Positions 14,033-55,847 of a stretch of DNA of 64,000 bases are shown here, piece by piece. How positions within the stretch are numbered: position 1 is the first letter of the stretch; the number at the start of each line of letters is the position of its first letter. Position numbers and translations under genes: made by a program. The notes below the pieces were generated by a model that was given only the letters and a program-made list of their open reading frames with translations, was not told where the DNA came from and searched no databases. The stretch is from Bdellovibrio sp. SKB1291214 (GTDB lineage: Bacteria > Bdellovibrionota > Bdellovibrionia > Bdellovibrionales > Bdellovibrionaceae), in contig NZ_CP106855.1 in NCBI RefSeq assembly GCF_002209355.2, positions 2,294,001 to 2,358,000 of the forward strand. The letters are read 5' to 3'.

Positions 14033-14124
14033 GTTGTCTCCCATTTAGAAACCAAGGATACTTCAGATGGTACAACGGAGCAATGTTGGCGGTTAGCTTT
14101 AAGCGTTAATGGCGGAGCATGATA

Positions 14125-15144
14125 ATGAACACAATCCCTGAGATCCAACAGATTGAATCACGCATCGAAATAATGGGAAGCGCCATGCGTTCTGAAGTTC
14201 TGGATTACAGCCGGGATGGAGATTTGCAACTGCCGATTTATAAACTTTCCTTCGGCACAACCGCCCCTGAAGCTCCGGTTTTAGGCCTTATCGGCGGAGT
14301 GCATGGTCTTGAGCGCATTGGAGCGCAGGTCACTATCGCTTTGTTGAATTCATTTTCAGAACTGGTTCGTTGGGACCGCCAAACCCAAAGAACTCTGCAA
14401 GAGGTTCGTGTCTTTTTCATTCCTACGGTGAACCCCATCGGTATTCTTAAAAAAACTCGCAGCAATCCCCGTGGTGTGGATCTGATGAGAAACGCACCCG
14501 TCGAAGCGGATCGTCCCGCGCGTTGGTTGGGCGGACATCGTTACTCTGCGAAATTTCCCTGGTATCGTGGTAAAGAAAACGAACCCATGGAAATTGAATC
14601 CCAAGCGATGATCCGGGGTGTTCAGCAAGAAATCGCGAACAGTAAATTGGCTATCACCTTGGATTGTCATTCAGGCTTTGGATTGCAAGATCGACTGTGG
14701 TTTCCGTGGGCAAAAACGCAAAAGCCATTTCCAGAATTGGCGCTGGCCCATTCCTTTAAAACTCTTTTAGATGAAACCTATCCCCATCACTTTTATAAGG
14801 TGGAACCTCAAGCCGGAACTTACACGACACACGGGGACTTGTGGGATTATCTGTACATGAACCATCAAGGAGAGGCGCAAGGCAAACAGTACTTACCACT
14901 CTGCTTAGAGATGGGTTCATGGATGTGGGTCAAAAAGCATCCCTCTCAACTTTTCCGATCGGATGGTGCCTTCAATCCATTGATAGGCCATCGCCATCAG
15001 CGGACGCTACGCCGTCACAATACTTTGATGGAGCTGATGATTCGCGCGATTGCAAATCCTCAGGCGTGGGCTTGTGTTTCTAAACAACAGTTGGAAGAAC
15101 ATCGCATGAAAGCACAGGAACTTTGGTATGCAGAAAACAAATAA
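14125..15144 (+). CDS. M14-family zinc carboxypeptidase-like hydrolase
   Basis: About 339 residues from ATG 14125 (GGAG at good spacing; the ATG two codons earlier is too close). The zinc ligands are visible as GGVHGLERIG (HxxE, about residue 53) and LDCHSGFG (His, about 177). The substrate-binding NPRGVDLMRN (about 115) and the general-base glutamate in CLEMGS (about 266) are also present. This is the carboxypeptidase A/succinylglutamate desuccinylase fold. There is no signal peptide, so it acts in the cytoplasm, perhaps trimming peptides derived from prey or cell wall. The downstream hydrolase gene overlaps its end by 17 bases, so the two are coupled. Confidence 0.85.
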   Translation: MNTIPEIQQIESRIEIMGSAMRSEVLDYSRDGDLQLPIYKLSFGTTAPEAPVLGLIGGVHGLERIGAQVTIALLNSFSELVRWDRQTQRTLQEVRVFFIPTVNPIGILKKTRSNPRGVDLMRNAPVEADRPARWLGGHRYSAKFPWYRGKENEPMEIESQAMIRGVQQEIANSKLAITLDCHSGFGLQDRLWFPWAKTQKPFPELALAHSFKTLLDETYPHHFYKVEPQAGTYTTHGDLWDYLYMNHQGEAQGKQYLPLCLEMGSWMWVKKHPSQLFRSDGAFNPLIGHRHQRTLRRHNTLMELMIRAIANPQAWACVSKQQLEEHRMKAQELWYAENK

Positions 15145-15865
15145 ATGGATTTTATTGCGAGGCCTTGCTCGGGGAAAAGGTCACTGGGGATCGTTTCCCG
15201 AAGAGATGCAAAAGTTTTTTCCGGATGCGCAAATCGAAATGATTGATTTGCCAGGAAACGGAGAACGCAATTCTGAACAAAGTCCTTTGTCGGTACCCGA
15301 GTATGTTAAAGACATGCGCGCTCAATCGCAGTTCGTCAAAGAGGGGGAGCCTTATCAAATCCTGGCGGTTTCACTCGGAGCGATGATCGCTGTGCAGTGG
15401 ATGAAAGAACATCCTGCGGAAGTGATAAAGGCCCATTTGATTTGCACAAGCTCTGCCAGCACGTCGCCATTTTATCATCGTTATCAGTTGCCAAATTATC
15501 TGCCAACTCTGCGCATGTTTGCGCAACCCAACCCCGAAATTTATGAGCAAACGATTTTAAAAATGACCACGAATGATCTGAACCGTCGTGCGCTGGAGTA
15601 TCCTCGTTTGCTGAATTACTCAAAACGCTTTCCAGAAAAACGTGGCAACGTCTTGCGCCAGTTGATCGCGGCCTCGCGCTTTCAAATTCCCGAAAAGGCT
15701 CCTGGCGTGATAAATCTGATGGGCAGTTTTGGAGATCGGCTTGTTTCTCCGAGATGCACTTTGAGTCTGGGGAAGCGGTGGGGAATCGAGCCTCATATGC
15801 ATAACGCTGCGGGTCATGATGTGCCCATTGATGACCCCCGGTGGGTGCTGGAGCACTTACTCTAA
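15128..15865 (+). CDS. Alpha/beta-hydrolase fold protein
   Basis: The 245-residue cytoplasmic protein has the core alpha/beta-hydrolase elements. The nucleophile elbow reads AVSLGAM (Ser about residue 81; the first Gly of GxSxG is Ala). The acid is the Asp of GSFGDRLVSP and the base is the His of AGHDVPIDDP near the C-terminus. A GRGKGHW-like oxyanion loop near the start is also present. The substrate is unknown; MetX/BioH-type esterases look similar. The start overlaps the M14 peptidase gene by 17 bases, suggesting a shared pathway. Confidence 0.82.
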   Translation: MQKTNKWILLRGLARGKGHWGSFPEEMQKFFPDAQIEMIDLPGNGERNSEQSPLSVPEYVKDMRAQSQFVKEGEPYQILAVSLGAMIAVQWMKEHPAEVIKAHLICTSSASTSPFYHRYQLPNYLPTLRMFAQPNPEIYEQTILKMTTNDLNRRALEYPRLLNYSKRFPEKRGNVLRQLIAASRFQIPEKAPGVINLMGSFGDRLVSPRCTLSLGKRWGIEPHMHNAAGHDVPIDDPRWVLEHLL

Positions 15866-16011: not shown

Positions 16012-17451
16012 GTGAGGGGAAAAACCTATTGGCTGGCGCTGGTTTTCAGTGTTCTAGCGACTCACACATCACATGCTGCTGACTCGAGCTTAAGACTACC
16101 CAAAGCTCAAGGGACAAGTACTATCAAGAATCTTGAGAAATCAGAGGATTCGGAGCCAGCACACGTCTACGGTCAGATCCGTTTGGAGGGAATGCAATAT
16201 CTCACTCCAGTTCCAGATGCTCCCAGACTCACTTACAGCCAGCTTCTGTCAGCACGTCTTTCGGTTTTAAAAGAGACCCGTTGGATTGATGCTGCGACCG
16301 ATGTGTCGGGTGGTACATTTTTCTCCCGTGGTCAGACGCATTTGATCGTTCATGAAACTTATCTAGCCTCCAAGGGGGAGAACTTTAAAGTTTTCGCCGG
16401 TCGCAAAAAGAAAGACTGGAGTGATATCGATCACCGCTGGAATCTTGGCTTGTGGCAACCCTTCTTAACAATCGATGCTCTTCGTCCCGAGGAAGAGGGT
16501 CTGACGGGGTTCTTCTTTGATTATAACAAGAAGGATTGGGAAGTTCTGTTTATGGCGACGCCGATGTTTATTCCCAGTATGGGCCCCGATGTTCGAGAAG
16601 AGGGTGGCGGCCTGGTCGCGGACAGTCGTTGGTACCGCGCTCCTTCGCGCAACTATGATTTCAACTCTCGTATCAATACTATTTCGTATAAGCTCGACAT
16701 CCCTGAGCAAGCTAAGCTTGTAAATAATGGGGGAGCATCCCTGATGACTCGACTGGGAGACAAATCCAAAGGGACTTGGGTCGTCGCCAGCGCAGGTTAT
16801 TTGCCGGTGAACGATTTAGTTTTAAAGCGCCAAGCTTTCAAACAAACTTCCGAAGACAAAGTGGACGTCACGGTTCAACCAGCAGTCACTTATCATCAAA
16901 TTCAATCCGTGGATGTGGGTTACACGTATAAGGCTGTAAAAACCACGATCTCCTATCTGCAGGATTCACCCGAGGCGCATCTGCCTGAAGAAGAGTGGGT
17001 TATCCAAAACTTAAAACCACTTCAGGCGTACTCTGCGGCTGTGGATTTCTCTCTAGCGGATGTTTTGACGAAGACGATTGCGGTTCAGATTGCCTATTTA
17101 AAAGTTGTCGGTGGAGGTATCGTTGACGTCACGTCAAATGGCACCCCGGATGATTTTACTCTTTATGATTCCAGATTAAAGTTCACCAACAGCTTGATGC
17201 TTCGCTTAGAAGGTCAACTTGCGACGTGGTTTAAGCGTCCGTTGGTGACACGTATTAAGTATCTTTACGATTACGACCAACGTGGCTCGTTACTGAATAC
17301 GGAATTCCAATATTATCCAACACAGAAATGGGCCGTGGTGATGGGTGGCGACGTTCTGGGGGTTCAGGATGAAAGCTATAAACCTTCAAGCTTCCTGAAT
17401 CAATTCCGCGCCAACGACCGTTTCTATGGAGGCATGACTTATGTTTTCTAA
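16012..17451 (+). CDS. Outer-membrane beta-barrel, first gene of lipoprotein module A
   Basis: A 479-residue protein from GTG 16012 (AGAGGAGA ribosome site). The signal peptide ends THTSHA and the mature part begins near residue 23. The rest is beta-rich with many aromatic-ended strands and closes with YGGMTYVF, a typical barrel-terminal signal. It is plainly homologous to the barrel at 50977-52338: both share a GRKK motif, RWxLGxWxPF/L, and a PxFIPSxGP-type segment at corresponding positions. The lipoprotein gene's ATG is embedded in the last codons (TAT GTT TTC TAA), an 11-base overlap. The barrel could be a pore, an anchor or an exporter for that lipoprotein. I do not recognise a named family. 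Confidence 0.75.
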   Translation: MRGKTYWLALVFSVLATHTSHAADSSLRLPKAQGTSTIKNLEKSEDSEPAHVYGQIRLEGMQYLTPVPDAPRLTYSQLLSARLSVLKETRWIDAATDVSGGTFFSRGQTHLIVHETYLASKGENFKVFAGRKKKDWSDIDHRWNLGLWQPFLTIDALRPEEEGLTGFFFDYNKKDWEVLFMATPMFIPSMGPDVREEGGGLVADSRWYRAPSRNYDFNSRINTISYKLDIPEQAKLVNNGGASLMTRLGDKSKGTWVVASAGYLPVNDLVLKRQAFKQTSEDKVDVTVQPAVTYHQIQSVDVGYTYKAVKTTISYLQDSPEAHLPEEEWVIQNLKPLQAYSAAVDFSLADVLTKTIAVQIAYLKVVGGGIVDVTSNGTPDDFTLYDSRLKFTNSLMLRLEGQLATWFKRPLVTRIKYLYDYDQRGSLLNTEFQYYPTQKWAVVMGGDVLGVQDESYKPSSFLNQFRANDRFYGGMTYVF

Positions 17452-20400
17452 AAACTCTGTTGTAGCTACTCTTATGGCAGCAGTAATGACATTTATTGCG
17501 GGCTGTGACTCTAAGATCGGGGAAGCCCCGCCGGAAGCTCAAGCCCACGAATACGCTGGAGCCTCTTGCCTATCGAACACGAGTTCCGTGATGCGTGAAT
17601 TTGTCGAGGGTCGCGCTAAAGAAGCCGACATTAATGCTCTGTGGGGCTGCTTAGGAGGTGCTGTTCAAAGCTTCCAACGTTATGTGCGGGGAAGTGATAA
17701 ATCTCGTTACACGTCTCAGGAGCTTGCAACTTTCATTGAAAAAAACTTTTTGGATCAAACCAAGGGAGCAAAAATCAGCCCTGAACTTCAGTTGGAGTTC
17801 ATGAAGCTAAAGCAGCTGTTCCTAGGTGGTAACGTTAACTACATCACCCAAAAAGAACTGACTGGTTTGCAAGACGTGTTTGCTTTACTTAAAGGAATCA
17901 CGGTTCGTCTAAATCCCTATATGAAGATCGTCGTTTTGAAGTGGTCCGTTTCTGATACGAACCAAGTTCAAAAAGACATGCAGTTCTTCGAAGACGCGAA
18001 TAAAGAACTGCAAAACTCTGCCAAACTTTTGGCAACCCATATCGAAAAAAATGGTCAGGCTTATAACCTGTCGGACGTCGTCACGTTCCTGCAAGAGCTT
18101 TCAAAGACCCTTGATGATAACTGGTCGGGTGTGGAATTGGTCCGCACATATATGCCCGTTGTGAAAAAAACCAAGAAAGCATTGGCAGGTGGAAATGAAA
18201 ACTCCATCGCTCCGAATGAATGGCGTCGTTTTAGTTTATTGGGTGCTCGCGGTTACGTGCAGTATCTGCGCTATTACTATTTCATTGAACAAGTCCCTGA
18301 AACCGATACAGGTTACCGTTTGACATACTTGGCGCGCACGATCGAAGACGTTTTATCAGTCTTTCAAGATCTCGTGGCTGAAAAACCCGAGGGCGTTGTA
18401 TCACGGGATGAGGTCAACGATCTTTTACTGACCTTCTCAAAGGTGTGGCCTGACTTTAAAATTTCTCCGAAAATGATTTTGGAAACGATGAAGGTTAAGC
18501 AACTGATCTTTGGCGGCAGTGTTGATTCCTTCACGACGAATGACTTTAAAACGGCTCGTATGAAGGTAAATCGCTTAAAAGCGATCGTTGAGCGTTTCTT
18601 GCCCTATTATCCCATTTACAGTCGTGATTGGGATCCGCAGATGTACTCTTACCAAGAATCGCAAAGACTTTTCCAAGATGCTCAAGCAGTTCTTGAACAG
18701 TCAGGTACAGAGCTGGGTGCCCTGGTCGAAGGCCCTTACGATCTCAAAGACGTCGTCGTCATTTTGCGCGAATACGAAAAGCTGTATCCTCGTAAAGATA
18801 AAGAGCGCAGTCAGTCTAAAGACGACAAGTACGTTCCAATCAGTGAGCAAATTGAAAAATTAATGCCGTTGATCGTGGATGCAAAAAACATGGTTTTTGG
18901 AGGCAACGATTCAACGTTGTCTAAAAAAATCTGGAGTCCATTATTAAGCCTGGGTTCTCGTGTCTATATGGGCGCTTTGTATCACCACTATTTCGTGGCG
19001 GATAAAGACAGGGAAAAGGCCGAGACGTTGTGGTCTTTGTCGACGTTCTCCAACCAAAGTTTAAATGTTCTTCGCGATATTTTGGTTAAAAAACCAGTTC
19101 ATCAAGTCAGTATGTCTGAGATCATGTTGATCATAAACCGTTTGAAAGAAGCGGATTATGTCGACGAGAAGGTGAATCTGGGATCGCTGAAAACCGTTTT
19201 GGGCCTTGTTGTGAACAATGTTTTGGTTGATCCGGAAGATCGCTTAGGCGGTTACGTCCCAAATGCCATCACCATGCACTCGGTGGAATTGTTGCGAGAA
19301 GAATTGCAAATCTGGCTTGATACGGAAATTTTCTTTTCTGGCCTGACTCGCAACTTTAATAAAAACCAAGGTCTGCGTCCTCGCGATTTTGCCGATGCTA
19401 TAGAAAAAGCCCGTACGAACGTGAATAGCTCAGCAGCTTTGCGCACGGGTCTGAAAGAGTTGGGGATGTCTGTGGCGACACCTGCTCCTTTGACCATCGA
19501 TCAGCAGGGGCGCTTGTTTATTTCTCGTGAGTTGCCACAAGTTTATGATCAAAGCTCAATGAGTCAGCTCAATTTGAACCGCATGGTGGCCCGTATCCTG
19601 ATGCGCTCTTTTGCTGGCAATTTAAGTCGTATCAAAGCCTATGCGGGAGTCACCGTCGAAGAGGTCAACAAGGTTTTCAATACAGTGAAGCCCTTCTTCG
19701 TGGATTTGCAAATGCTTGAGCCAGAAAACGAGACATTTGGTGATGCTCGTTTCCGTGATGCCAATATCTTTATGCCTCATTCTGACGGGAACAAGACCGC
19801 TTCATTCATTGAGCTGACGGACCTTGTGGGTATGCTGTGGTCCGGGGTGACGATCAATACGATGTTGACTGAATCCATGCCTAAGGATTGCCTGTTTGAG
19901 CAAGTGCTCAGAAATCCTAAAACGGGTGTTTCAAAACTTGAAAAAATGGTGAAAGTTGATTGTGCCGCCAACGCGTATCGTTCATTGCTGGAAGAAAAAA
20001 TGACGGCAACACCGGTCTTCCGCAGATACCTGCGCAGTATTGATCGCGATGAGACGTTGGAGTTTATTAACAACATCTTTAAGTCGTCTGGCTATGTTCC
20101 TAATAAATCTCGCACAACGAAATTGGCGGATTTAGGGCAAGTGCCCCATGCGATTCAGTATATTGAAATGATCTTCACTCGTTTTGATGAAAACAGTGAC
20201 GGGGTTTTGACCAAATACGAAGCCCTTAAAGCTTATGACTTGTTCGCAGGTTTGTTGGGTCAATATGCCGGGGACCAAGTGGCACCGAAAGATTTAGATT
20301 CTGTGTTTATGTTCCTGCTTCGTTACGGCAAAGCTCCAACGACGTTGAAAGAAAAAGCGACGTGGTTCCTGCGTTGGAAGGGCAAACCTGATAACTGGAA

Positions 20401-20515
20401 CGTGGCTGCGGATCGAAGCCAGTTGGCTCGGATTTTAGGATACATCGCGGATATGAGCAATCAAGCGACCGCTCAGCTTGTTCCTGAAATTCCTGAATCT
20501 GTTTTGAATCAATAG
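17441..20515 (+). CDS. Giant EF-hand lipoprotein of module A
   Basis: The 1024-residue lipoprotein has lipobox FIAGC with acylated Cys22. The body is mostly alpha-helical. A motif of the form KxLxxGG(N/S) recurs at about residues 125, 255, 365 and 490, in two alternating types, so the first half is an internal duplication with a period of about 230-240 residues. A canonical EF-hand calcium loop, DENSDGVLTKYE, lies at residues 916-927, with a degenerate one (SDGNKTASFIE) further upstream. Two cysteines near 820-845 have counterparts in the homologue at 52328. A GGAGG ribosome site lies inside the barrel gene. Probably cell-surface; the function is unknown. Confidence 0.72.
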   Translation: MFSKNSVVATLMAAVMTFIAGCDSKIGEAPPEAQAHEYAGASCLSNTSSVMREFVEGRAKEADINALWGCLGGAVQSFQRYVRGSDKSRYTSQELATFIEKNFLDQTKGAKISPELQLEFMKLKQLFLGGNVNYITQKELTGLQDVFALLKGITVRLNPYMKIVVLKWSVSDTNQVQKDMQFFEDANKELQNSAKLLATHIEKNGQAYNLSDVVTFLQELSKTLDDNWSGVELVRTYMPVVKKTKKALAGGNENSIAPNEWRRFSLLGARGYVQYLRYYYFIEQVPETDTGYRLTYLARTIEDVLSVFQDLVAEKPEGVVSRDEVNDLLLTFSKVWPDFKISPKMILETMKVKQLIFGGSVDSFTTNDFKTARMKVNRLKAIVERFLPYYPIYSRDWDPQMYSYQESQRLFQDAQAVLEQSGTELGALVEGPYDLKDVVVILREYEKLYPRKDKERSQSKDDKYVPISEQIEKLMPLIVDAKNMVFGGNDSTLSKKIWSPLLSLGSRVYMGALYHHYFVADKDREKAETLWSLSTFSNQSLNVLRDILVKKPVHQVSMSEIMLIINRLKEADYVDEKVNLGSLKTVLGLVVNNVLVDPEDRLGGYVPNAITMHSVELLREELQIWLDTEIFFSGLTRNFNKNQGLRPRDFADAIEKARTNVNSSAALRTGLKELGMSVATPAPLTIDQQGRLFISRELPQVYDQSSMSQLNLNRMVARILMRSFAGNLSRIKAYAGVTVEEVNKVFNTVKPFFVDLQMLEPENETFGDARFRDANIFMPHSDGNKTASFIELTDLVGMLWSGVTINTMLTESMPKDCLFEQVLRNPKTGVSKLEKMVKVDCAANAYRSLLEEKMTATPVFRRYLRSIDRDETLEFINNIFKSSGYVPNKSRTTKLADLGQVPHAIQYIEMIFTRFDENSDGVLTKYEALKAYDLFAGLLGQYAGDQVAPKDLDSVFMFLLRYGKAPTTLKEKATWFLRWKGKPDNWNVAADRSQLARILGYIADMSNQATAQLVPEIPESVLNQ

Positions 20516-20917: not shown

Positions 20918-20975
<58 letters not shown>

Positions 20976-43966: not shown

Positions 43967-46900
43967 TTAGTTACGGAACATGCCAGGCGAAGCAGGCATC
44001 CCGAAGCCAAAGATCTGAGAAATCATACTGGTTGCGTCGTTCTGAATTTGCTCAGAAGTTTGCGTCGAGTGAGGCATGATTGAATTGCCTTTGATCGCAG
44101 TCACAAACTTGTTGAAGTCATTCGTCGAGCGCAAAGCCAGGAAGAAGTTACGATTGCGATCGTCACCATTGTCTTGCATTTGTGTGCTCGAAGTCTCTTG
44201 AGCGATCATATAGTAGTTTTCAGTCACGTCGACAGGCAATGTTCTGTCAGTGCCTTCACACAGCATCAGACCACGAGTCACCGCAGCCGCTACTTCGTTT
44301 TCGCTCAAACGTGGGTTCAAAGTGTTCAAGTAATCGGAGCGACGGAAGTCGTACCATGATTTTTGACCTTTGATGAACAACGATGGATTCAATTTCACGA
44401 TCGCACATTGTTCGTATTTCGCCACGCGCACTTTGATTTTGCTTTGTTGAACGGTCATGGTTGTCGACGTATTTACGCTGACCCCATTGCTTGTGCCGTG
44501 GGAGTTTGACCACGATAAGTTCATACCCACATCAGCACCTACAGAGAAGAACTCTAGGAACTTAAAGTTCAAACCACCTTTAGCGCCAACACTGCGAGAG
44601 AACGTCTCTGACTTAGAGCGGCTCATCGCAAAGCTCGTACCCACGCTTAAACCTTGGTTGAAACCTTGTAGGTAACGGCTGCCAATAACCTGTTTAGCAA
44701 CCAAGCGGCGTTCAGTTTGGAAAAACGCTTCAGGATTTTTCTTAACAGCACTGTAGCAATCCGAAGCCAAAGTCATGACAGCATCATTTTGCAGAGTGCC
44801 GCCTTTGTTTTTATTCATGCGCGGCAAATAGTCCTGAGCCCAAAAGACACAAAGTTTTTGCGCGATGTCCGCTGTCAGTTTACCTGTTGCGATCACGTTC
44901 ATAAGATCTTTTTTAGTTGTCAGCAAGCGGCGGTCGCGGTTGGCAAGGGCAGGAACCAGGCCACCCAGAGTGTTGTTTTCTGCAGCAGTGTTCAACGTTA
45001 TCAAATCCAAATTGTTTTGCATCGCAAACGCCACTGGTTTTGACATCGCATCCAAGTTTTTCAAACGTTCACGTTGTTCAAGTTGACCTTGAGCCATGAT
45101 TTTGCTGATGATGCTTGTTTGCACATTCGCGCCTTGACCATTGATCAAGAACTGATTCACAGCTGCAGGGTCGGCGATACGAACGTTACGTCCTGCTTCA
45201 TCGACGTTCAAAGTGAAAGGACCCATGAATGTCGGCGTTTCAAGTCCTGTTGATTTATCAATCGCTGAATCCAAAGAGGCTTTAGCATCTTTCAATGCAA
45301 TTTGGGAGTCTTTGCCGACTTGGATTTTAGTCTCATCCACAGGATAGATCTCAATCAACATTGTGTTACGGCTGCCCAAGGCCTTAAGGTCTTGAGTTTG
45401 GAATTGGATCTCCGTATTAATTTGACCTGACAGAACAGTCACAAGCTTTTGTGCTGAAGTTACATAAGTTCTGTTTGAGTCGTAATCCGCATTTTTAACA
45501 ACAGCCATTTTTAACAAGTAAGTACCGTCACGAAGTTTTTGAACTTCAGAACGACCATTCGACAAGCTTGAGTACACAAGCAAGTGTGGATCCATACGAA
45601 CTTGGATTTTCTTAGTCACAGTCAGGTTGAACATCGTGTCTACAGAGTAGTTGTAAGACACTGTGTTGTAGCTGTAAGCGTCCAACATCAATTGCGTGCG
45701 TGGACGGTTTTCTTGCTTACAGTCCAAAACCAGTTTTTCTGTTGGATCTACGTAACGAAGGTCACGAGCTGTGGGACCCCAAGTTTCCCAAGGATTTACC
45801 AACATCGGAAGTGTTTCGTTCATGCCAAGTTCTTTATTAGAGATCATCACGGAACCCTTGATGAAACGTTGGCAGTCAAAGTATTTAAATTTGATGCTTT
45901 CATCCCAAGTGATGCAAGAGTTGTTATCTGTTTTGATATTCACCTTTTGTGCAGTCTCGGCCTCTGTTTGACGGAACTTAGTCACCGTGAACGTGTGGGC
46001 ACGAGTCGACTTTTGATCCAAACCGTTTTTAACGCAAGCTTTTACAGAGTAAATCACTTCACGCATAGAAGTAGTCTCTTCACCCACGCGGATGAATTTA
46101 AACTCTAGTTGTGAAACTTCGATTTTAGGTTTCTGGTAAGTTTCATCGTCAACCGCGTTCGCGTTTGTTTTAGAAACTTGAACCATGTTGGCATTGATGT
46201 ATTCAGCCAATTTAAAATCTTTAGATTGTGCGACTTGAGAGCTGATTTTCAAAAAGTTCGAACCTTTGATTTGGTCGTACTCATTCAGCATGTAAAAGCC
46301 TTGAAAAGGCATCAAGCCTTCTGGGCCATTGACAGCCGTCAACTCAAGACCGAATGCCACTTGTCCACGAGTTGGGATGGCACTCAAAGAAAGTACGGAT
46401 TTCAGACCTAAAGAGCCGTTTTCCATTGTGCTTGTCATTTCGGATGTCTGTGCAAGCAAGCGGTGAACTTCTTTGTTATTCTCAGTATAAATATGGATCA
46501 AGCTCATGCGGGCTTTGAAGGTACCTGCAGCCAGGGACTTCAAAACGAATTCGCCATTCATTTTCGTCAATTGAATGGCAGGAGCCGGATTTCCACGGAA
46601 CTCAAGTTCCAGATTTACACCCTCTGTTGTCATCTTTTTCTCAGTAACGAACAAACGACCGTCTTCAACCCACAACTTGCGCGTGCGAACTTGATCGTCA
46701 GCAGAGAAGCCCTTCAATGCTTGTTGAACTGCTTTTTTATCAGAGACCAATTTATCAACTTGCTCTTTACGCAGATCGACAACTGCTGGCAAAGATTCCC
46801 CATGAGACCAAGGGTTGATCGCAAGGTCGATTTCGCGTGTGCCTTTTTGCAAGCCCAGGCCTTGGATGTGACGTTTGATCTCAATATATTGAGAGTCAGC

Positions 46901-47245
46901 CAGGTAGTTGTATTTGATTTTTTCAGACCAGTTAATGCAACCAGCAGCATCAGAAGTAATGTTTTGCTGAGTTTCTTGGATCATGAACTTGTGACCCGCG
47001 ATTGTCTTATTATAAGCAACATCTTTCACGCAAACAGAGAAGTTAAATACTTTAGAGTCAGGCAATGCGAATGCGCCCGCAGTTTGTTCTGTGGAAGCAG
47101 TTCCTTTGATGCTGTCGATATTAAAGGTCGCAGCCTGTGAGCCTGATTCGTTTTTATCTTTAGGCGAAGGCAAATTACAAGCTGCCAACGTCAAAAGGTT
47201 CAACCCTAAAATGAATTTTACGAAATACATTTTAGATGTTTGCAT
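43967..47245 (-). CDS. Giant surface lipoprotein of module C
   Basis: A 1092-residue protein with lipobox LAAC (Cys23). The N-terminal half has two copies of one domain (about 65-155 and 395-505), each with a cysteine-containing SVxxCVK strand, H-x-F, C(I)xW-x-E-x-IK(Y/F)xY and a closing NPW. The second half is helical then glycine/serine-rich, with a DYL-rich C-terminus. The family is unknown. Its ATG lies inside the last codons of the upstream barrel gene (14-base overlap), with GGAG seven bases before it. An ATG at 47230 is the alternative start. It has the same design as modules A and B but a different sequence. Confidence 0.7.
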   Translation of the reverse strand: MQTSKMYFVKFILGLNLLTLAACNLPSPKDKNESGSQAATFNIDSIKGTASTEQTAGAFALPDSKVFNFSVCVKDVAYNKTIAGHKFMIQETQQNITSDAAGCINWSEKIKYNYLADSQYIEIKRHIQGLGLQKGTREIDLAINPWSHGESLPAVVDLRKEQVDKLVSDKKAVQQALKGFSADDQVRTRKLWVEDGRLFVTEKKMTTEGVNLELEFRGNPAPAIQLTKMNGEFVLKSLAAGTFKARMSLIHIYTENNKEVHRLLAQTSEMTSTMENGSLGLKSVLSLSAIPTRGQVAFGLELTAVNGPEGLMPFQGFYMLNEYDQIKGSNFLKISSQVAQSKDFKLAEYINANMVQVSKTNANAVDDETYQKPKIEVSQLEFKFIRVGEETTSMREVIYSVKACVKNGLDQKSTRAHTFTVTKFRQTEAETAQKVNIKTDNNSCITWDESIKFKYFDCQRFIKGSVMISNKELGMNETLPMLVNPWETWGPTARDLRYVDPTEKLVLDCKQENRPRTQLMLDAYSYNTVSYNYSVDTMFNLTVTKKIQVRMDPHLLVYSSLSNGRSEVQKLRDGTYLLKMAVVKNADYDSNRTYVTSAQKLVTVLSGQINTEIQFQTQDLKALGSRNTMLIEIYPVDETKIQVGKDSQIALKDAKASLDSAIDKSTGLETPTFMGPFTLNVDEAGRNVRIADPAAVNQFLINGQGANVQTSIISKIMAQGQLEQRERLKNLDAMSKPVAFAMQNNLDLITLNTAAENNTLGGLVPALANRDRRLLTTKKDLMNVIATGKLTADIAQKLCVFWAQDYLPRMNKNKGGTLQNDAVMTLASDCYSAVKKNPEAFFQTERRLVAKQVIGSRYLQGFNQGLSVGTSFAMSRSKSETFSRSVGAKGGLNFKFLEFFSVGADVGMNLSWSNSHGTSNGVSVNTSTTMTVQQSKIKVRVAKYEQCAIVKLNPSLFIKGQKSWYDFRRSDYLNTLNPRLSENEVAAAVTRGLMLCEGTDRTLPVDVTENYYMIAQETSSTQMQDNGDDRNRNFFLALRSTNDFNKFVTAIKGNSIMPHSTQTSEQIQNDATSMISQIFGFGMPASPGMFRN

Positions 47246-48365
47246 AGAAAGTCTCCAGCTTGATCATAATAAACTTCTCGCGTGATTGAACGGTGTTCGA
47301 AAACATAACTTCAGATTCTTTGTATGAAGCCCCAAGGTCGAAACCTTGCTTCAAGAATGAGAAAAAGCTGCCAACTTCATAGCCGATACGGTTTGTTTCG
47401 TAACCGCGAGCATTGAAGTAAGCAACCGCTGCTTCTGGAGCAACTGAGAAGTATTTTGCCATAACGCTGAAATCAAGAGCGGAGGATACGTGAATTCTAG
47501 TGCCACCTTTAACTGAGTACGCTGTATTTACATTGTCCGCAGCTTGAGTGTTTTTTACGTATTCAGCTTCCAATGTTAAATCCAGCAACGTGCTGACCGG
47601 AACAGAAATCTCGGTTCCAGCTTCAACACCCGCATATTTGTTAACAAATTCATAGTGAGCATCTGAAATCGTATTCACTTCATTACCCAAAAGCATAGAT
47701 TGTTGAGCCACTGCAGAAGGTAGGTTGCTGTAAGCAAAATAACCGATTTTGTTTTTCCAAAAGCCATTTTTAGAAGGGATAAAGTTCATTCGAACAGACG
47801 CGGAATTCAAAGATGGAGTGGGCTCTTTTTCTTGCGTGTTTGTGCTTAAAGAAGTCGAAGTTGGAATCGCAGATTCAACCACGAAACCTGATACCATTGA
47901 ACCCATTCTGAAAAGGCTTTGCATGCGCGCAGACGGGAAAGCCATTGAATCAATTAACAATGAAGTATGGTTATAACGTTGGTCCAAAGCTCCCGCTGCC
48001 AACTGAAAGAAATTCGCAGGTTTATACATCAAACCGGCTTGATTCAATAGAATCGCGTTTTTCATGCTGTCGGCGCCATCGATTGTCTGAGATTGGCCAG
48101 AAACAACACGGAATCCAGGTTGGAAATCAATATAAAGGGAATTCGTTAAGACATATTTGGATTTAAGCTCCAAGCGCAGGTCTACATATTTAGCTTGGGT
48201 TTGCTCGTCCTCTTGGCTTTGGCCTTTCATAGACATACGCCATTCCGCCGAGAACTTCTTAGTCTCAGAGTCATTAGATACTGTTGTCACAGACGTACCT
48301 TGAGCCCAAGCTTGGCCTACCAGTATCAAAGTGAGACAAAGTGCTGTCATAGCGGACGTTTTCAT
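47232..48365 (-). CDS. Outer-membrane beta-barrel of module C
   Basis: A 377-residue protein with signal peptide GQAWAQ. The rest is alternating strands with many Tyr/Phe and ends in KLETFYANI. It looks like a porin-type or transport barrel of perhaps 14-16 strands. No close match to the module A/B barrels is visible. The lipoprotein gene starts within its final codons, so the pair is translationally coupled. A CCCCTGTTACGGGG hairpin lies just upstream of the ATG. Confidence 0.72.
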   Translation of the reverse strand: MKTSAMTALCLTLILVGQAWAQGTSVTTVSNDSETKKFSAEWRMSMKGQSQEDEQTQAKYVDLRLELKSKYVLTNSLYIDFQPGFRVVSGQSQTIDGADSMKNAILLNQAGLMYKPANFFQLAAGALDQRYNHTSLLIDSMAFPSARMQSLFRMGSMVSGFVVESAIPTSTSLSTNTQEKEPTPSLNSASVRMNFIPSKNGFWKNKIGYFAYSNLPSAVAQQSMLLGNEVNTISDAHYEFVNKYAGVEAGTEISVPVSTLLDLTLEAEYVKNTQAADNVNTAYSVKGGTRIHVSSALDFSVMAKYFSVAPEAAVAYFNARGYETNRIGYEVGSFFSFLKQGFDLGASYKESEVMFSNTVQSREKFIMIKLETFYANI

Positions 48366-50853: not shown

Positions 50854-50976
50854 GCCTGAATCCTAGCAAGGGCGCCCAAAAAGGTCACTTGTTTAAAACG
50901 TTCCATGGCTCTGCCCCTTAAAATCCGCCTCACCAGGGCACGGCCTGTGAAGTATAAGCGGTGGATAGGGAGAACT

Positions 50977-52338
50977 ATGTTATTTAGACGACCCCCCAAA
51001 GGGGCTTCTATATTTCATTTGATTGTTTTTTGGGCAGTGCTAGCTGTCCCAGGTTTCGCTGTGGCCCAAGTGCGCACGGAAATGAAGCTATTCTCCGACT
51101 CCTTTATCAGCCCAGAATTTGAAGCTACGCAGAAAAATAACTACCAGTTTGTGGGTGCCGGCATTAAGACCGAGCCCTTTTCAGACGCAGCACTTCGTAT
51201 GGATATTTCCGGCGGTGTGGCGGTGGGTTCGCCTCTTTTGAATTATCTAAATATCGCTGAATTTTATGTGCAAACCAAACAAAGTGACACAGAGACGTTC
51301 TTTATAGGACGTAAAAAAATGCTGTGGAGTGAGCTCGACGCGCGTTGGGAATTGGGCGTGTGGGAGCCTCTTTTTAAATGGAACCCACTGGCTCCAGAAC
51401 GCCAAGGTCTGTCGGGTATTTTCTGGCAAACAGAAGGCAAACAATACTCATTCACTTTGTTTGCTTCGCCTATTTATATTCCAAGCCAAGGCCCGAGCTT
51501 TGAAATCGAAGACGGGGACTTTGTAAAAGGAAATCCGTGGTTTCACCAACCGCCACAAAGTGTGCGCATCTGGGATGAAGCCACTCAAATGCAGTACAAC
51601 ATGAATCAACCAAACACGACCGAAATTGTCGTGCAAAACTCCTATGGTGCAAAGATAGCCGTCGGGGACCCGAATGGCTTAAAGGCACAGTTAAGCTATA
51701 TTTATAAACCCGATAATACGTTGGCGATTGGTTATCAAGGCAGTCTTGATCTGAGCACTTTAAAAGGGAACGTCGAATTGCGTCCCCAAGTTTTCTATCA
51801 CTCGCTCACTGGCGGGGATTTAACTTATAAAACCGGCCGTTTGCGTATGGGGATTAGCACGATTTTGGATCGCCCCACAAAAGAAAATGTTTTTAATGAT
51901 CCAGATTGGACTCAACCTGTTTTCGAAGATGCTTTGCTAGTAAGTCCCTTTGTCGAGTGGGACAATGGAAACTGGGCCCTCAATATCATGCGCTTGGATA
52001 TCTATGGCGGTAAAGTGACAGAGACAGGGGCGGACTTGGCCAATGAGCCATTGACGAATCTGTATCCATTCTATGAAGCCAACCAGATTTCGGTATTGAA
52101 CAACTTGAGCTTAGGCAAAGCCCGCCGCTTGCTTTCCAAAGTAAGCTACATGATGTCTGATAAAAATGATTTTCAACTATTCCGAGTCCATACTCGTCTG
52201 CGCTTGTCAGGCTTGTGGTCCTTCTTTGGCGAGATGCAAATGCTCAAAGCCGGTCCCACTTCAAAAGAAAATCAAAATGAACTGGCGCAGTTTGCAAACA
52301 ACGACCGTTTGATGTTAGGAGCAGCTTATGTCTTTTAA
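50977..52338 (+). CDS. Outer-membrane beta-barrel, first gene of lipoprotein module B
   Basis: The start at ATG 50977 has an AGGGAG ribosome site; the longer frame from 50905 is unlikely. About 453 residues with a signal peptide ending FAVAQ, then beta-rich with the same marks as the 16012 barrel (GRKK, RWELGVWEPL, PIYIPSQGP) and a closing GAAYVF. The lipoprotein ATG is embedded in the final TAT GTC TTT TAA codons, exactly as in module A (11-base overlap). It diverges from the LPS operon. The function is unknown. Confidence 0.75.
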   Translation: MLFRRPPKGASIFHLIVFWAVLAVPGFAVAQVRTEMKLFSDSFISPEFEATQKNNYQFVGAGIKTEPFSDAALRMDISGGVAVGSPLLNYLNIAEFYVQTKQSDTETFFIGRKKMLWSELDARWELGVWEPLFKWNPLAPERQGLSGIFWQTEGKQYSFTLFASPIYIPSQGPSFEIEDGDFVKGNPWFHQPPQSVRIWDEATQMQYNMNQPNTTEIVVQNSYGAKIAVGDPNGLKAQLSYIYKPDNTLAIGYQGSLDLSTLKGNVELRPQVFYHSLTGGDLTYKTGRLRMGISTILDRPTKENVFNDPDWTQPVFEDALLVSPFVEWDNGNWALNIMRLDIYGGKVTETGADLANEPLTNLYPFYEANQISVLNNLSLGKARRLLSKVSYMMSDKNDFQLFRVHTRLRLSGLWSFFGEMQMLKAGPTSKENQNELAQFANNDRLMLGAAYVF

Positions 52339-54721
52339 GAATAAGCTCTCTTTATTAATGGCCTCGTTGATCATGACGACATCCGTGGTGGGTTGCAGCG
52401 ATTTTATCAATGGCCGTGAGACCAAAGAAGAAGAACTGCATTTCGCTAATGATAAGCTGGTCTGTTTAAGAGATGTGCCTGCTTCTTTGAAACGCTTAAC
52501 AACAGGCGATGCGGAATCTAAAGAAATCATTATCTCGGTGGATTGTCTGCGCGAAGCCCTGGTGTACTTCCAAAAGAAAACTTACGGGGCGCAAAGCAAT
52601 GCCTACACAGTGGAAGAAATGCGTCGTTTCTTCAGTAAGTATTTTTTAAAAGAAAACGTTGTGACTCCGGAGTTCGCTCTGGAATTGATGAAAATTAAAA
52701 AGGCCCTTCTGGGTGGTTCGAATAATAATCTGACTAAGGATGAAATCACTCGTTTGGTCGAAGTGCTGGCGATTTTACGTGATGAGGCGGTGGATTTAGC
52801 GCCGCATATCAAGCTATTGCTTTTAAAAACGGAAGTGGACGAGGCGAACTGGCAGCAGGTTTCGGCAGCGACAGAGCAACTGCGCATCGGTGCTCAACGT
52901 TTACTGGAAAAAACCGAGCTCAGCCGTTCTGATTATTCCTTTGAAGACGGCAAACGTGCGATCAAAGGTTTCAAAGAATTCGTGAAAGAAAAAGACACAG
53001 AGGCCCGTGTATCGCAGTGGCTGCCTGTGGTGGAAGTGGTTAAGAATGTGCTGATGGGCCGGGAAGCTCAGCTTGCAACCTTCAGTCAGTGGAAGGGCAG
53101 TCTGAACAGCTTGGTGGATTTATACGGCTTATTCCTAAAGTACCACTACGTGATTCATAATTTCGATACCAGCAATCAAACCAAAGTGCGCGAAGTCAGT
53201 CAGTTTATTGGTCAAGCGATTGACTTGATCGAAGGATGTCCTCAAATCACCACCCGTGGCATGATTCCATTGGAAGATATTGATAATTTAATTGAGACGA
53301 TTTTGAATCTGCCCCAGGTAAAAAAAGTTGTTCAGATTCGCCCTGTTTCCGTCGAGACTTTGTATCGCGCTGCCATTTTGAGATTGTTAGAACCGGGTCG
53401 TAACGGAGATTCTCGAGGTATATTAGGGCTTGAGAAAAAGCACATCGTCGCTTTACGTCGTGAATACAATGTTTGGAGATTAGTCCAAAGCTTTGCGGAT
53501 TCTCAGTTGCAAGGCCAACGTTCCGTGGATGCTCCCATCCCTAGAAACGAACTCCTGTTGAACTATAAACAGTTCGATAACGGCTCGGTGATTAATAATG
53601 GTTTGTCATCAGATCCCTACGAACAAACGGCTTTGTTGAATGCTTGGAATGACTTTGGAGATTTACTAAAATCCAATGTTTTGATCGTTTATAATAAAAA
53701 CGGGCGTATTGAAGAATACAATAATAATGATACTCTTTCGACCACGTGGACCGGTCTTACAAAATCAAATTTGATGCGTGCAATGTCCCGTGCCCTGATG
53801 TTGGCCTATGGTAAAGAGACCAGTGGTGAACTTAAAAAAGCGACGATCCAACCCGAGGGCCTATACACTTGGTACGAGGATTTTAAAGAGCTGATGTTTG
53901 ACCTTAAAGCGTTTGATCGACGTACGGGCAATACGGCTTCGCGTTCGTTCCAAGAGGCGAATTTCTTTACGTTCAGTGGTAATGGCGATGATTACATGAA
54001 TCAAAGGGAGACCTATGAGTTCGTGAGCTTGCTGTTCAGTGCAGGCTTGTCGTCTTCGGCATCGATTTATAATGACATGTTGGTCGAAGGCTGTGGTAAA
54101 GCGAATGGTTTGTCGCTGCGTGAAGATACAGATCCACTGGGCTTTTATTATTTGAATGATAAGTGCTTTGAAAGTCAGTTCCGTTTGCAGTTCAACAAGC
54201 ATTTTGACAACTTGCCTGAGATGTCCAAATGGGTTGCGCGCATGACTCCGGCGGAATGGACTGAGTTCTATTCAACATTGCGATTCCTGTCTCGCGTTTC
54301 TGATAAAGAAGACGAAGGCTTGGTTGAGGTTGCCAACATCAGAACAATGGTGACAATCATCCATTACATCGAGTCGATCATGGTGAGCTATGATAAAGAT
54401 CGTAATCAGACTTTGTCGCTGGATGAGGTCTATGCCGCATCTCCACGCTTTATGCCGTTTATTAAGAAAAGCACCACTGTGACGATGGAAACCCTGTTGA
54501 ACCAAGGTTTTGCTTACCTCGTATTCTATGGCAAAGAGGGCAATGGGGCTCAATTAGCATGGTTCCAAGCACAGAAGATCTGGATGAATGAAGCAACGCG
54601 AATGAACCTTCTTCGCGTGATTAAAGTTATCAAGCAGAAAGATATGGATAAGGCCGCGCAGCAACAGAGATCGGCTCAAGGCTATTCAGCGCAAAATAAA
54701 GCAAAAATCCTCGTAAAATAG
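52328..54721 (+). CDS. EF-hand lipoprotein of module B
   Basis: A 797-residue lipoprotein with lipobox SVVGC (Cys23). It is mostly helical and homologous to the module A lipoprotein, with one clear copy of the GG motif (MKIKKALLGGSNNNLTKDE), a second degenerate one (VKNVLMGREAQ), and a canonical EF-hand loop DKDRNQTLSLDE at residues 689-700. Cysteines near 590-620 correspond to those in module A. It is shorter than module A because it has one, not two, of the repeated blocks. The AGGAG ribosome site lies within the barrel gene. Probably surface-located; the function is unknown. Confidence 0.73.
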   Translation: MSFKNKLSLLMASLIMTTSVVGCSDFINGRETKEEELHFANDKLVCLRDVPASLKRLTTGDAESKEIIISVDCLREALVYFQKKTYGAQSNAYTVEEMRRFFSKYFLKENVVTPEFALELMKIKKALLGGSNNNLTKDEITRLVEVLAILRDEAVDLAPHIKLLLLKTEVDEANWQQVSAATEQLRIGAQRLLEKTELSRSDYSFEDGKRAIKGFKEFVKEKDTEARVSQWLPVVEVVKNVLMGREAQLATFSQWKGSLNSLVDLYGLFLKYHYVIHNFDTSNQTKVREVSQFIGQAIDLIEGCPQITTRGMIPLEDIDNLIETILNLPQVKKVVQIRPVSVETLYRAAILRLLEPGRNGDSRGILGLEKKHIVALRREYNVWRLVQSFADSQLQGQRSVDAPIPRNELLLNYKQFDNGSVINNGLSSDPYEQTALLNAWNDFGDLLKSNVLIVYNKNGRIEEYNNNDTLSTTWTGLTKSNLMRAMSRALMLAYGKETSGELKKATIQPEGLYTWYEDFKELMFDLKAFDRRTGNTASRSFQEANFFTFSGNGDDYMNQRETYEFVSLLFSAGLSSSASIYNDMLVEGCGKANGLSLREDTDPLGFYYLNDKCFESQFRLQFNKHFDNLPEMSKWVARMTPAEWTEFYSTLRFLSRVSDKEDEGLVEVANIRTMVTIIHYIESIMVSYDKDRNQTLSLDEVYAASPRFMPFIKKSTTVTMETLLNQGFAYLVFYGKEGNGAQLAWFQAQKIWMNEATRMNLLRVIKVIKQKDMDKAAQQQRSAQGYSAQNKAKILVK

Positions 54722-54731
54722 TCTTCCGAAA

Positions 54732-55847
54732 TTGAACAGCTTCCCAAAGTACGTTAAGGTCTTTGGAATGTTGGGGTTTAGTTTTTGGGGAGCAGTTTTT
54801 GGGTTGTGTTTGGTGTCGCCAGTGGCGATGGCAAATGCCCATGCAATGGATGAAGAAGTCCCCATCGTTGTTCGTGAACCTGCTTCTGAGCCTGCCTATT
54901 ATGCCAATAAAGATGCCACAGCTCGCATCGATACCTTTCTTGATAACAAGACCCTCAAAGCCAACACGCACTTTAACGACTGGCGTGTGGGCGAGACAGT
55001 CTCTGTTGAATCACAAAAAAGTGGGGTAGGGGTTATCGGGTTTTTGGAAATTCTAGGAGTTTCCAATAATGAAGATGGGACTTATCAAATCACGGCGGAA
55101 CTCTTGCGCCAATCTCGCCTGCATTTCATTCAGATTGGCGATCAAATCAGTCACATCAATCTGTCGTCAGAAAATGACAAGTACAAGGGCACCACGGATT
55201 TATTGATCAAACGCCGTGGAAAAAATATTTCCGCTAAATACAAACCTCTGTTCACTCAAGGTGTGTCCGTGGGTGAAACGGCCGAGACATTGTGGCAGAA
55301 CGAATATCTTTTAGCTTGGTACGGTCAGGCCAATTTCGGTGTGACGGATAAACTGTCAGTGGGAACAGTTTTAACGGGGGATATCGCAGGAGCTTACAAT
55401 GCCTCTGCGAAATACCGCGTCTTTCAGTCCGATTCCAATACATTTTCTGTGGGCGCGAATACGGCCCATGTTCCCAGTGACAGTTCTAACACTCTGAACT
55501 TTACGGTGTACTGGGATTCTATTTCTTCGGAAAGCGTGATTTCTCACACCATGTTCACGGTGGCGGCAATGTCTTTTGCTAACGCCTCTGACATCACGGC
55601 AGTAAAGTCCCTGGGGACGACGTCCTTCCAAACGGGGTACGAGTTTATCAGCGACAACTGGGATCGTGTTTTACTGGGTCCTTCGTATAACTTTGAAACC
55701 AAAGCACTGGGTGGTTATTTAACCTATGTGAAAATTTGGGATCGTTTTCATTTCAGCTTATCACTTAATGCCACGGATGTTTCTTCATTCAAGCTTTCCG
55801 CGACGGATGGTTATTACGTTCTGTTTGATGCTTACTGGAGATTCTAA
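54732..55847 (+). CDS. Secreted outer-membrane protein, third gene of module B
   Basis: A 371-residue protein from TTG 54732; this keeps a charged signal-peptide start, while ATG 54768 with an AAGG site is the alternative. The signal peptide ends NAHA. The first half holds small beta domains and a helical insertion; the last 180 residues are barrel-like and end in LFDAYWRF. It begins ten bases after the module B lipoprotein stop, so it is in the same operon. No counterpart is seen next to modules A or C. The family is unknown. Confidence 0.68.
   Translation: MNSFPKYVKVFGMLGFSFWGAVFGLCLVSPVAMANAHAMDEEVPIVVREPASEPAYYANKDATARIDTFLDNKTLKANTHFNDWRVGETVSVESQKSGVGVIGFLEILGVSNNEDGTYQITAELLRQSRLHFIQIGDQISHINLSSENDKYKGTTDLLIKRRGKNISAKYKPLFTQGVSVGETAETLWQNEYLLAWYGQANFGVTDKLSVGTVLTGDIAGAYNASAKYRVFQSDSNTFSVGANTAHVPSDSSNTLNFTVYWDSISSESVISHTMFTVAAMSFANASDITAVKSLGTTSFQTGYEFISDNWDRVLLGPSYNFETKALGGYLTYVKIWDRFHFSLSLNATDVSSFKLSATDGYYVLFDAYWRF

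Follow-up and report, generated by a model that had tools for sequence, protein, structure and literature searches.

A predicted beta-barrel and a large lipoprotein encoded by overlapping genes: a candidate two-part envelope system of Bdellovibrionota

RESULTS

Two overlapping barrel–lipoprotein gene pairs

The window (64,000 nt of Bdellovibrio sp. SKB1291214, contig NZ_CP106855.1, positions 2,294,001 to 2,358,000; coordinates below refer to this whole stretch, and genes lie on its (+) strand unless stated otherwise) carries two similarly arranged gene pairs, modules A and B. In module A, a barrel gene of 479 aa (16012–17451; GTG start with AGGAGA upstream), whose product is a predicted porin-like beta-barrel with the C-terminus YVF, is followed by a lipoprotein gene of 1024 aa (17441–20515), an open reading frame (ORF) with a lipobox ending at Cys22. 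The two genes share 11 bases, ATGTTTTCTAA (17441–17451), such that the lipoprotein start falls within the barrel's terminal codons Y-V-F-stop, and the ribosome-binding site (RBS) of the lipoprotein, GGAGG (17428–17432), lies within the barrel frame in Gly-Gly codons. Module B has the same layout, with a barrel gene (50977–52338), a lipoprotein gene of 797 aa (52328–54721), an 11-base overlap, ATGTCTTTTAA (52328–52338), and an RBS, AGGAG (52317–52321), within the barrel frame. The longest ORF of barrel B opens at 50905, but 50977 appears to be the better start, being an ATG with GGAGAACT just 5′ and a signal peptide immediately 3′. Both overlaps have the form TATG-TNT-TYT-AA, i.e., the barrel codons Y-V-F-stop. 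An initial annotation, made from the letters of this DNA, had described the layout of module A and a second module at 50977–54721 with an overlap of equal length, and the ORFs and RBSs located here bear out both descriptions.

The two modules had also been taken to be homologous, and sequence alignment agreed: the barrels are 25% identical over 437 aa (E = 1e-35) and the lipoproteins 26% identical over their first 334 aa (E = 1e-24), with a weaker match farther along, while the GRKK and RWxLGxWxP motifs listed in the annotation were found in both barrels. Only these two copies, A and B, are present in the 3.68-Mb genome; they are spaced 35 kb apart, compared with about 10 kb in g17 genomes.

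Further elements were observed around the modules. A perfect hexanucleotide repeat, TGCTCG (9.7 copies; 20918–20975), lies just 3′ of lipoprotein A and, as an exact tandem repeat, could vary in length between strains. Starting 10 bp 3′ of lipoprotein B is a gene for a 371-aa predicted outer-membrane protein (54732–55847), which is retained in this position in several relatives and is followed by an RNA methyltransferase-like gene. On the (−) strand, a third pair with a similar arrangement (43967–48365) comprises a 377-aa predicted outer-membrane protein (47232–48365) overlapping a 1092-aa beta-rich lipoprotein (43967–47245) by 14 bases; neither protein matched Pfam or NCBIfam, and neither resembles those of modules A and B.

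The barrel is predicted to be porin-like

Searches of Pfam, NCBIfam and PDB sequences with the window barrels (and, in Pfam, with 30 diverse homologues) returned no family match; thus, the profile search proposed in the initial annotation assigned the barrel to no porin family. A structure model based on 21 sequences (pLDDT 79, pTM 0.78) showed a single barrel from residue 51, where the strands begin, to the end, with residues 15–50 disordered and, according to DSSP, up to 20 membrane-crossing strands; we describe the predicted fold as a porin-like barrel of about 18–20 strands. Its best fold matches, which are 18-stranded, were tied: OccAB1 (Z 22.1), the OprD family (Z 21–22, with the best OprD/Occ match at about 22 over 319 residues), AlgE (Z 20.8 over 323 residues, rmsd 4.3) and Wzi (Z 20.3). 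These tied matches fit the general 18-strand shape and indicate no function or substrate. Conservation peaked in two long loops, L3 and L4 (residues 133–163, WS..D..W.LG.WQP, and 184–219, P.FIP.MGP...SRW), and was lower in the periplasmic turns. By topology, read from the secondary structure of the model and not from coordinates, these conserved loops would be on the external side, from which, like porin loops, they may reach into the pore; in that position they would fit a surface partner or a pore constriction equally.

The lipoprotein is predicted to be an EF-hand-like repeat array

Both modules show a clear signal peptide and lipobox Cys, as do most of the distinct N-termini (n = 98), although the automatic choice was wrong for a few of them. 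In nearly all homologues the lipobox is followed by a short linker ahead of the first conserved Cys, often CxxKxGExPP in type A. In the genus Bdellovibrio, type A lipoproteins carry Asp after the lipidated Cys (17504–17509 in the window), the other members nearly always Gly, Ser, Ala or Thr, usually Gly or Ser. In E. coli, Asp at this position signals retention in the inner membrane, and it counts against outer-membrane sorting of the type A lipoproteins of the window genus. The cysteine pairs reported in the initial annotation are strongly conserved among 79 homologues (C43 and C70, 100%; C817, 97%; C841, 95%).

The lipoprotein model (17 sequences; pLDDT 82, pTM 0.71) is all helical, with strands of two or three residues leading into many of the helices, a feature also of EF-hand pairs, and predicts an array of helical EF-hand-like repeats. 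Residues 40–290 and 291–525 (17558–19015) form an internal duplication (HHalign probability 99.9%), each copy consisting of two helix-loop-helix pair repeats of ~75–80 aa, and are followed by a fifth related unit (HHalign probability 80% and 66% against earlier units). The second copy is missing from the module B lipoprotein, and this accounts for most of the difference in length. Fold matches were led by EF-hand proteins and were weak (sorcin at residues 804–1017, Z 7.9 over 150 residues at 3.9 Å; CDPK1, Z 7.9; NCS-1 at residues 533–801, Z 5.8); for helical models, matches with Z below 8 are not proof of the fold, and Foldseek found no significant match for the whole lipoprotein. PDB profile matches were likewise EF-hand proteins (best E = 0.002), and the Pfam EF-hand score reached 14.6 of 30 bits in the window lipoproteins, below the curated cut-off, with other members attaining E = 7e-5.

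As for the EF-hand loops claimed in the initial annotation, one is canonical, namely DENSDGVLTKYE (residues 916–927; 20186–20221), which has D1 in 96%, D/N3 in 88% and E12 in 97% of 79 homologues, and a second, HSDGNKTASFIE (residues 780–791; 19778–19813), retains Glu at position 12 (97% conserved) with an atypical first ligand; the rest of the claim reduces to an EF-hand-like predicted fold devoid of ligands. Lipoprotein B carries an EF-hand loop, DKDRNQTLSLDE, at residues 689–700 (54392–54427). Judging from these residues, calcium binding at the canonical loop is plausible, and the protein probably has one calcium site, at 916–927, in an otherwise degenerate array, perhaps with another at 780–791.

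Barrel and lipoprotein are present and absent together

Profile counts cover Bdellovibrionota genomes alone (369 in the phylum and 141 in the order). Within the order, the barrel profile matched 126/141 genomes and the lipoprotein profile 127/141; across the phylum, they matched 294/369 and 295/369, respectively. Compared genome by genome across the phylum, both families were present in 291/369 genomes, neither in 71/369 and one alone in 7/369. These seven, three with only the barrel (G247, G276 and G342) and four with only the lipoprotein (G043, G195, G211 and G358), are all <90% complete or >5% contaminated, and none passes the quality filter; among good-quality genomes, each family scored 193/235. 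Both genes are missing together in families f2, f4, f6, f8, f10 and f11 and in part of f5, and with several families devoid of both, presence and absence go together. A search of plasmids for the pair gave no match. A single-sequence barrel scan of genome contigs likewise gave no match, and a six-sequence alignment used instead yielded 19 loci; an alignment of 30 barrel sequences offered no stretch of sufficient conservation. So far, the pair has been seen only in Bdellovibrionota, the phylum covered by the profile searches, and its spread over ~80% of the sampled phylum, across many families, suggests a core envelope function.

Gene order, neighbors and paralogs

In a first set of barrels, 76 had downstream DNA and a recognizable adjacent partner, and in all 76 the lipoprotein gene lies directly 3′ of the barrel on the same strand; its start at −11 is ATG in 73 and TTG in 2. 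An equal overlap also occurs well outside the order, in families f16, f20 and f22–f27 and in some members of f12. The module idea of the initial annotation, which had been staked on the barrel not being an ordinary porin and on pairs co-located elsewhere, came through on both counts and is strongly supported.

The layout has exceptions. Three barrels without an adjacent lipoprotein all belong to family f7, in which barrel and lipoprotein occupy separate loci; loss of the lipoprotein in f7 was considered and rejected, its gene having been located at another locus. Family f3 has the genes in reverse order, separated by 2 bases, while in f12 the genes are divergent and 112–159 bases apart in three genomes and in tandem without overlap in two. 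Both genes are kept wherever the order is reversed, divergent or split. As the f7 genes are unlinked, coupling is not indispensable.

Genes for an M14 carboxypeptidase and an alpha/beta hydrolase lie 5′ of module A (14119–15865) and also 5′ of the barrel in f7 and f9; these surroundings of the barrel are an old neighborhood. KDO and heptosyl transferase genes adjoin module B, not module A, and no polysaccharide synthesis or export genes were conserved beside the pair in the neighborhoods compared. In genome G004, which we take to be B. bacteriovorus HD100, a gliding-type cluster (L097:8063-18695), encoding TPR, GltC-like, MIDAS-adhesin-like (a weak match) and OmpA-like barrel proteins, is located some 3 kb away from module B. 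From gene order, we estimate the HD100 locus numbers of the pair as about Bd2364/Bd2365 and Bd2413-Bd2417. The cluster appears in the literature as Bd2368-Bd2377 (PMC12546842, PMC2797640). Membership of the pair in this cluster was rejected because the neighborhood is not common to the window genome, where the cluster is not beside module B.

Among carriers, the system usually occurs in two ancient versions, and some f9 genomes hold barrel–lipoprotein–barrel–lipoprotein tandems (L053, L058, L059 and L060). Trees of the barrel and the lipoprotein (66 pairs) contain largely equal groups, and their distances correlate with r = 0.88. When partners were swapped within the 13 two-module genomes, the mean r was 0.65 and 1 of 2000 swaps attained 0.88, that one being the unswapped case itself, although such non-swapping is likewise expected from physical linkage alone.

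The embedded start and RBS exceed expectation

Taken by itself, the overlap is weak evidence, because a barrel ending in Y-V-F yields the ATG free when its Tyr is TAT. Synonymous codons were, however, resampled over the terminal 12 codons in 91 distinct linked barrels, with codon usage taken from the gene concerned: the −11 ATG was present in 88/91 (53 expected), an SD-like four-letter site in 85/91 (44 expected) and a site from a stricter five-letter SD list in 72/91 (29 expected), where the rows are related by descent and the excess, therefore, carries no P value for independent events. Found in 88/91 linked barrel genes from many families, the overlap exceeds chance. In contrast, of nine barrels in other layouts (f7, split; f3, reversed; f12, divergent or gapped), none has the −11 ATG and eight have no SD, with a weak SD in the ninth; their C-termini are YLF, FIF or YRF in place of YVF. 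The difference between barrels inside and outside the overlapping layout runs as selected translational coupling predicts, and we hold with high confidence that the coupling through overlap and RBS is under selection.

DISCUSSION

A cognate outer-membrane pair as the preferred reading

We favor, with a probability of roughly 60%, the reading that the two products of each module, made by coupled translation, form a cognate two-component outer-membrane complex in which a channel has the lipoprotein as its lid, plug or adaptor. Translation would begin with the porin-like barrel of about 18–20 strands, and a ribosome finishing it would meet the SD and ATG in the barrel's last strand and re-initiate on the lipoprotein, such that the two proteins would be made jointly and in a fixed ratio. 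After lipidation of its N-terminal Cys, the lipoprotein would be sorted to the outer membrane and would fold into a long, disulfide-pinned EF-hand-like helical array, in which at least one loop probably holds Ca2+; as a lid, plug or adaptor bound to its own barrel, it would produce a selective or gated channel. What can be read off the sequences for this purpose is the phylum-wide co-occurrence, adjacency, overlap with RBS, non-swapping paralogous pairs, lipobox, and conservation of the disulfide-type cysteines and the calcium loop, joined by a barrel fold and a repeat fold that are predicted from models. Co-occurrence and coupling argue for joint function and not for contact; the functional partnership is highly probable, and a physical complex is likely. 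A role specifically as lid or adaptor of the channel is a tentative proposal, and we infer both the coupled mechanism and the side of the membrane on which the lipoprotein resides. A more elaborate version, in which a calcium-responsive two-part gate shared by nearly all Bdellovibrionota consists of a barrel opened and closed by its giant EF-hand-repeat lipoprotein, with equal numbers ensured by the start and RBS in the barrel's last strand, is rather improbable.

Other arrangements could produce parts of this pattern. A shared ancient operon with translational overlap, whose products serve the same process and never touch, draws on how common gene overlaps are in bacterial genomes and on the free overlap that the Y-V-F end (TAT GTN TTY TAR) provides, but the genes stay together through reversal, divergence and splitting and are jointly missing from several families, and both the synonymous codons and the RBS are biased far above expectation, which makes this account unlikely. 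A unit for prey contact or gliding adhesion that serves predation specifically is the least likely of the readings: module B lies near the GltC/TPR genes and weak MIDAS adhesin match of the gliding-type cluster in G004, but not in the window genome, and the occurrence of the pair in about 80% of the sampled phylum, in many families, disfavors a role in predation only.

Two further alternatives come from known export machines, and we consider both quite unlikely. If the barrel were a Slam-like translocator dedicated to its own lipoprotein, flipping or exporting it to the surface, the overlap would supply one exporter per cargo, and the cognate gene pair, strict co-occurrence, pair identity and long conserved barrel loops would all be accommodated, as would a barrel adjoining a lipoprotein that is possibly surface-exposed; the failure of PF04575 to match in 20 relatives is compatible with it too, the control of that search having given no match either. 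Slam-type barrels have 14 strands, however, compared with about 18–20 here, and equal stoichiometry is unexpected of an exporter. The barrel also has no T11SS domain (DUF560/PF04575 was not found in the window barrels and 30 diverse homologues), the model shows no N-terminal TPR domain, and the putative cargo is helical, unlike the beta-barrel-like cargo of T11SS (PMC12282271). The initial annotation proposed that the barrel may export, anchor or gate its lipoprotein; the present results would suit export and plain partnership alike. An AlgE/AlgK-like polymer exporter, with the helical-repeat lipoprotein as periplasmic scaffold of a trans-envelope secretion line, would account for the pairing of a barrel with such a lipoprotein and for AlgE and Wzi being among the top fold matches (Z 20–21), but OprD-type porins fit equally well, the Pfam family Alginate_exp is unmatched, the repeats are of another type, no conserved polysaccharide synthesis or export genes adjoin the pair, and the KDO/heptosyl transferase genes adjoin module B and not A.

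Comparison with known systems

The pair would work in the manner of SusCD or AlgE/AlgK while being a member of neither. A cognate outer-membrane pair recalls SusC/SusD of Bacteroidota, in which a barrel gene is followed by its own helical lipoprotein gene, several paralogous pairs occur per genome and pairing is strict. The pair described here differs in having no TonB plug or TonB-dependent-receptor Pfam match, in its far smaller 479-aa barrel with no plug in the model, and in a lipoprotein without SusD-family sequence or fold that has EF-hand-like repeats and weak Pfam EF-hand matches only. The 18-stranded OprD/Occ porins provide the best fold match and share the conserved long loop L3, but the barrel has no match to the OprD sequence family and, to our knowledge, ordinary Occ porins have no cognate lipoprotein. 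Another Bdellovibrio barrel family that went undescribed until recently is PopA, a pentameric outer-membrane protein that has 16 strands and a helical plug domain of its own and for which no lipoprotein partner was reported (PMC12228718); its strand number and plug domain, as described, set it apart from the barrels reported here.

No paper among those searched, whether by topic or through the estimated HD100 locus numbers, describes the pair, in keeping with the statement in the initial annotation that no such system had been described; that statement goes too far in one respect, as a barrel with a cognate lipoprotein is a known arrangement (SusCD, AlgE/AlgK, LptDE, and Slam and its cargo). 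The novelty lies in the two families, the architecture of the repeats and the sharing of bases between C-terminal signal and start codon. Two families with no Pfam or NCBIfam assignment are thereby identified as partners in an envelope system of ~80% of a sampled predatory phylum. The Y-V-F membrane-insertion signal at the barrel C-terminus provides a clean case of such a signal sharing bases with the start and RBS of another gene, with natural controls in which the shared letters are gone where the genes leave the overlapping layout. An undescribed barrel and a very large, probably calcium-binding lipoprotein would, on these sequences, point to a previously unrecognized two-part envelope machine.
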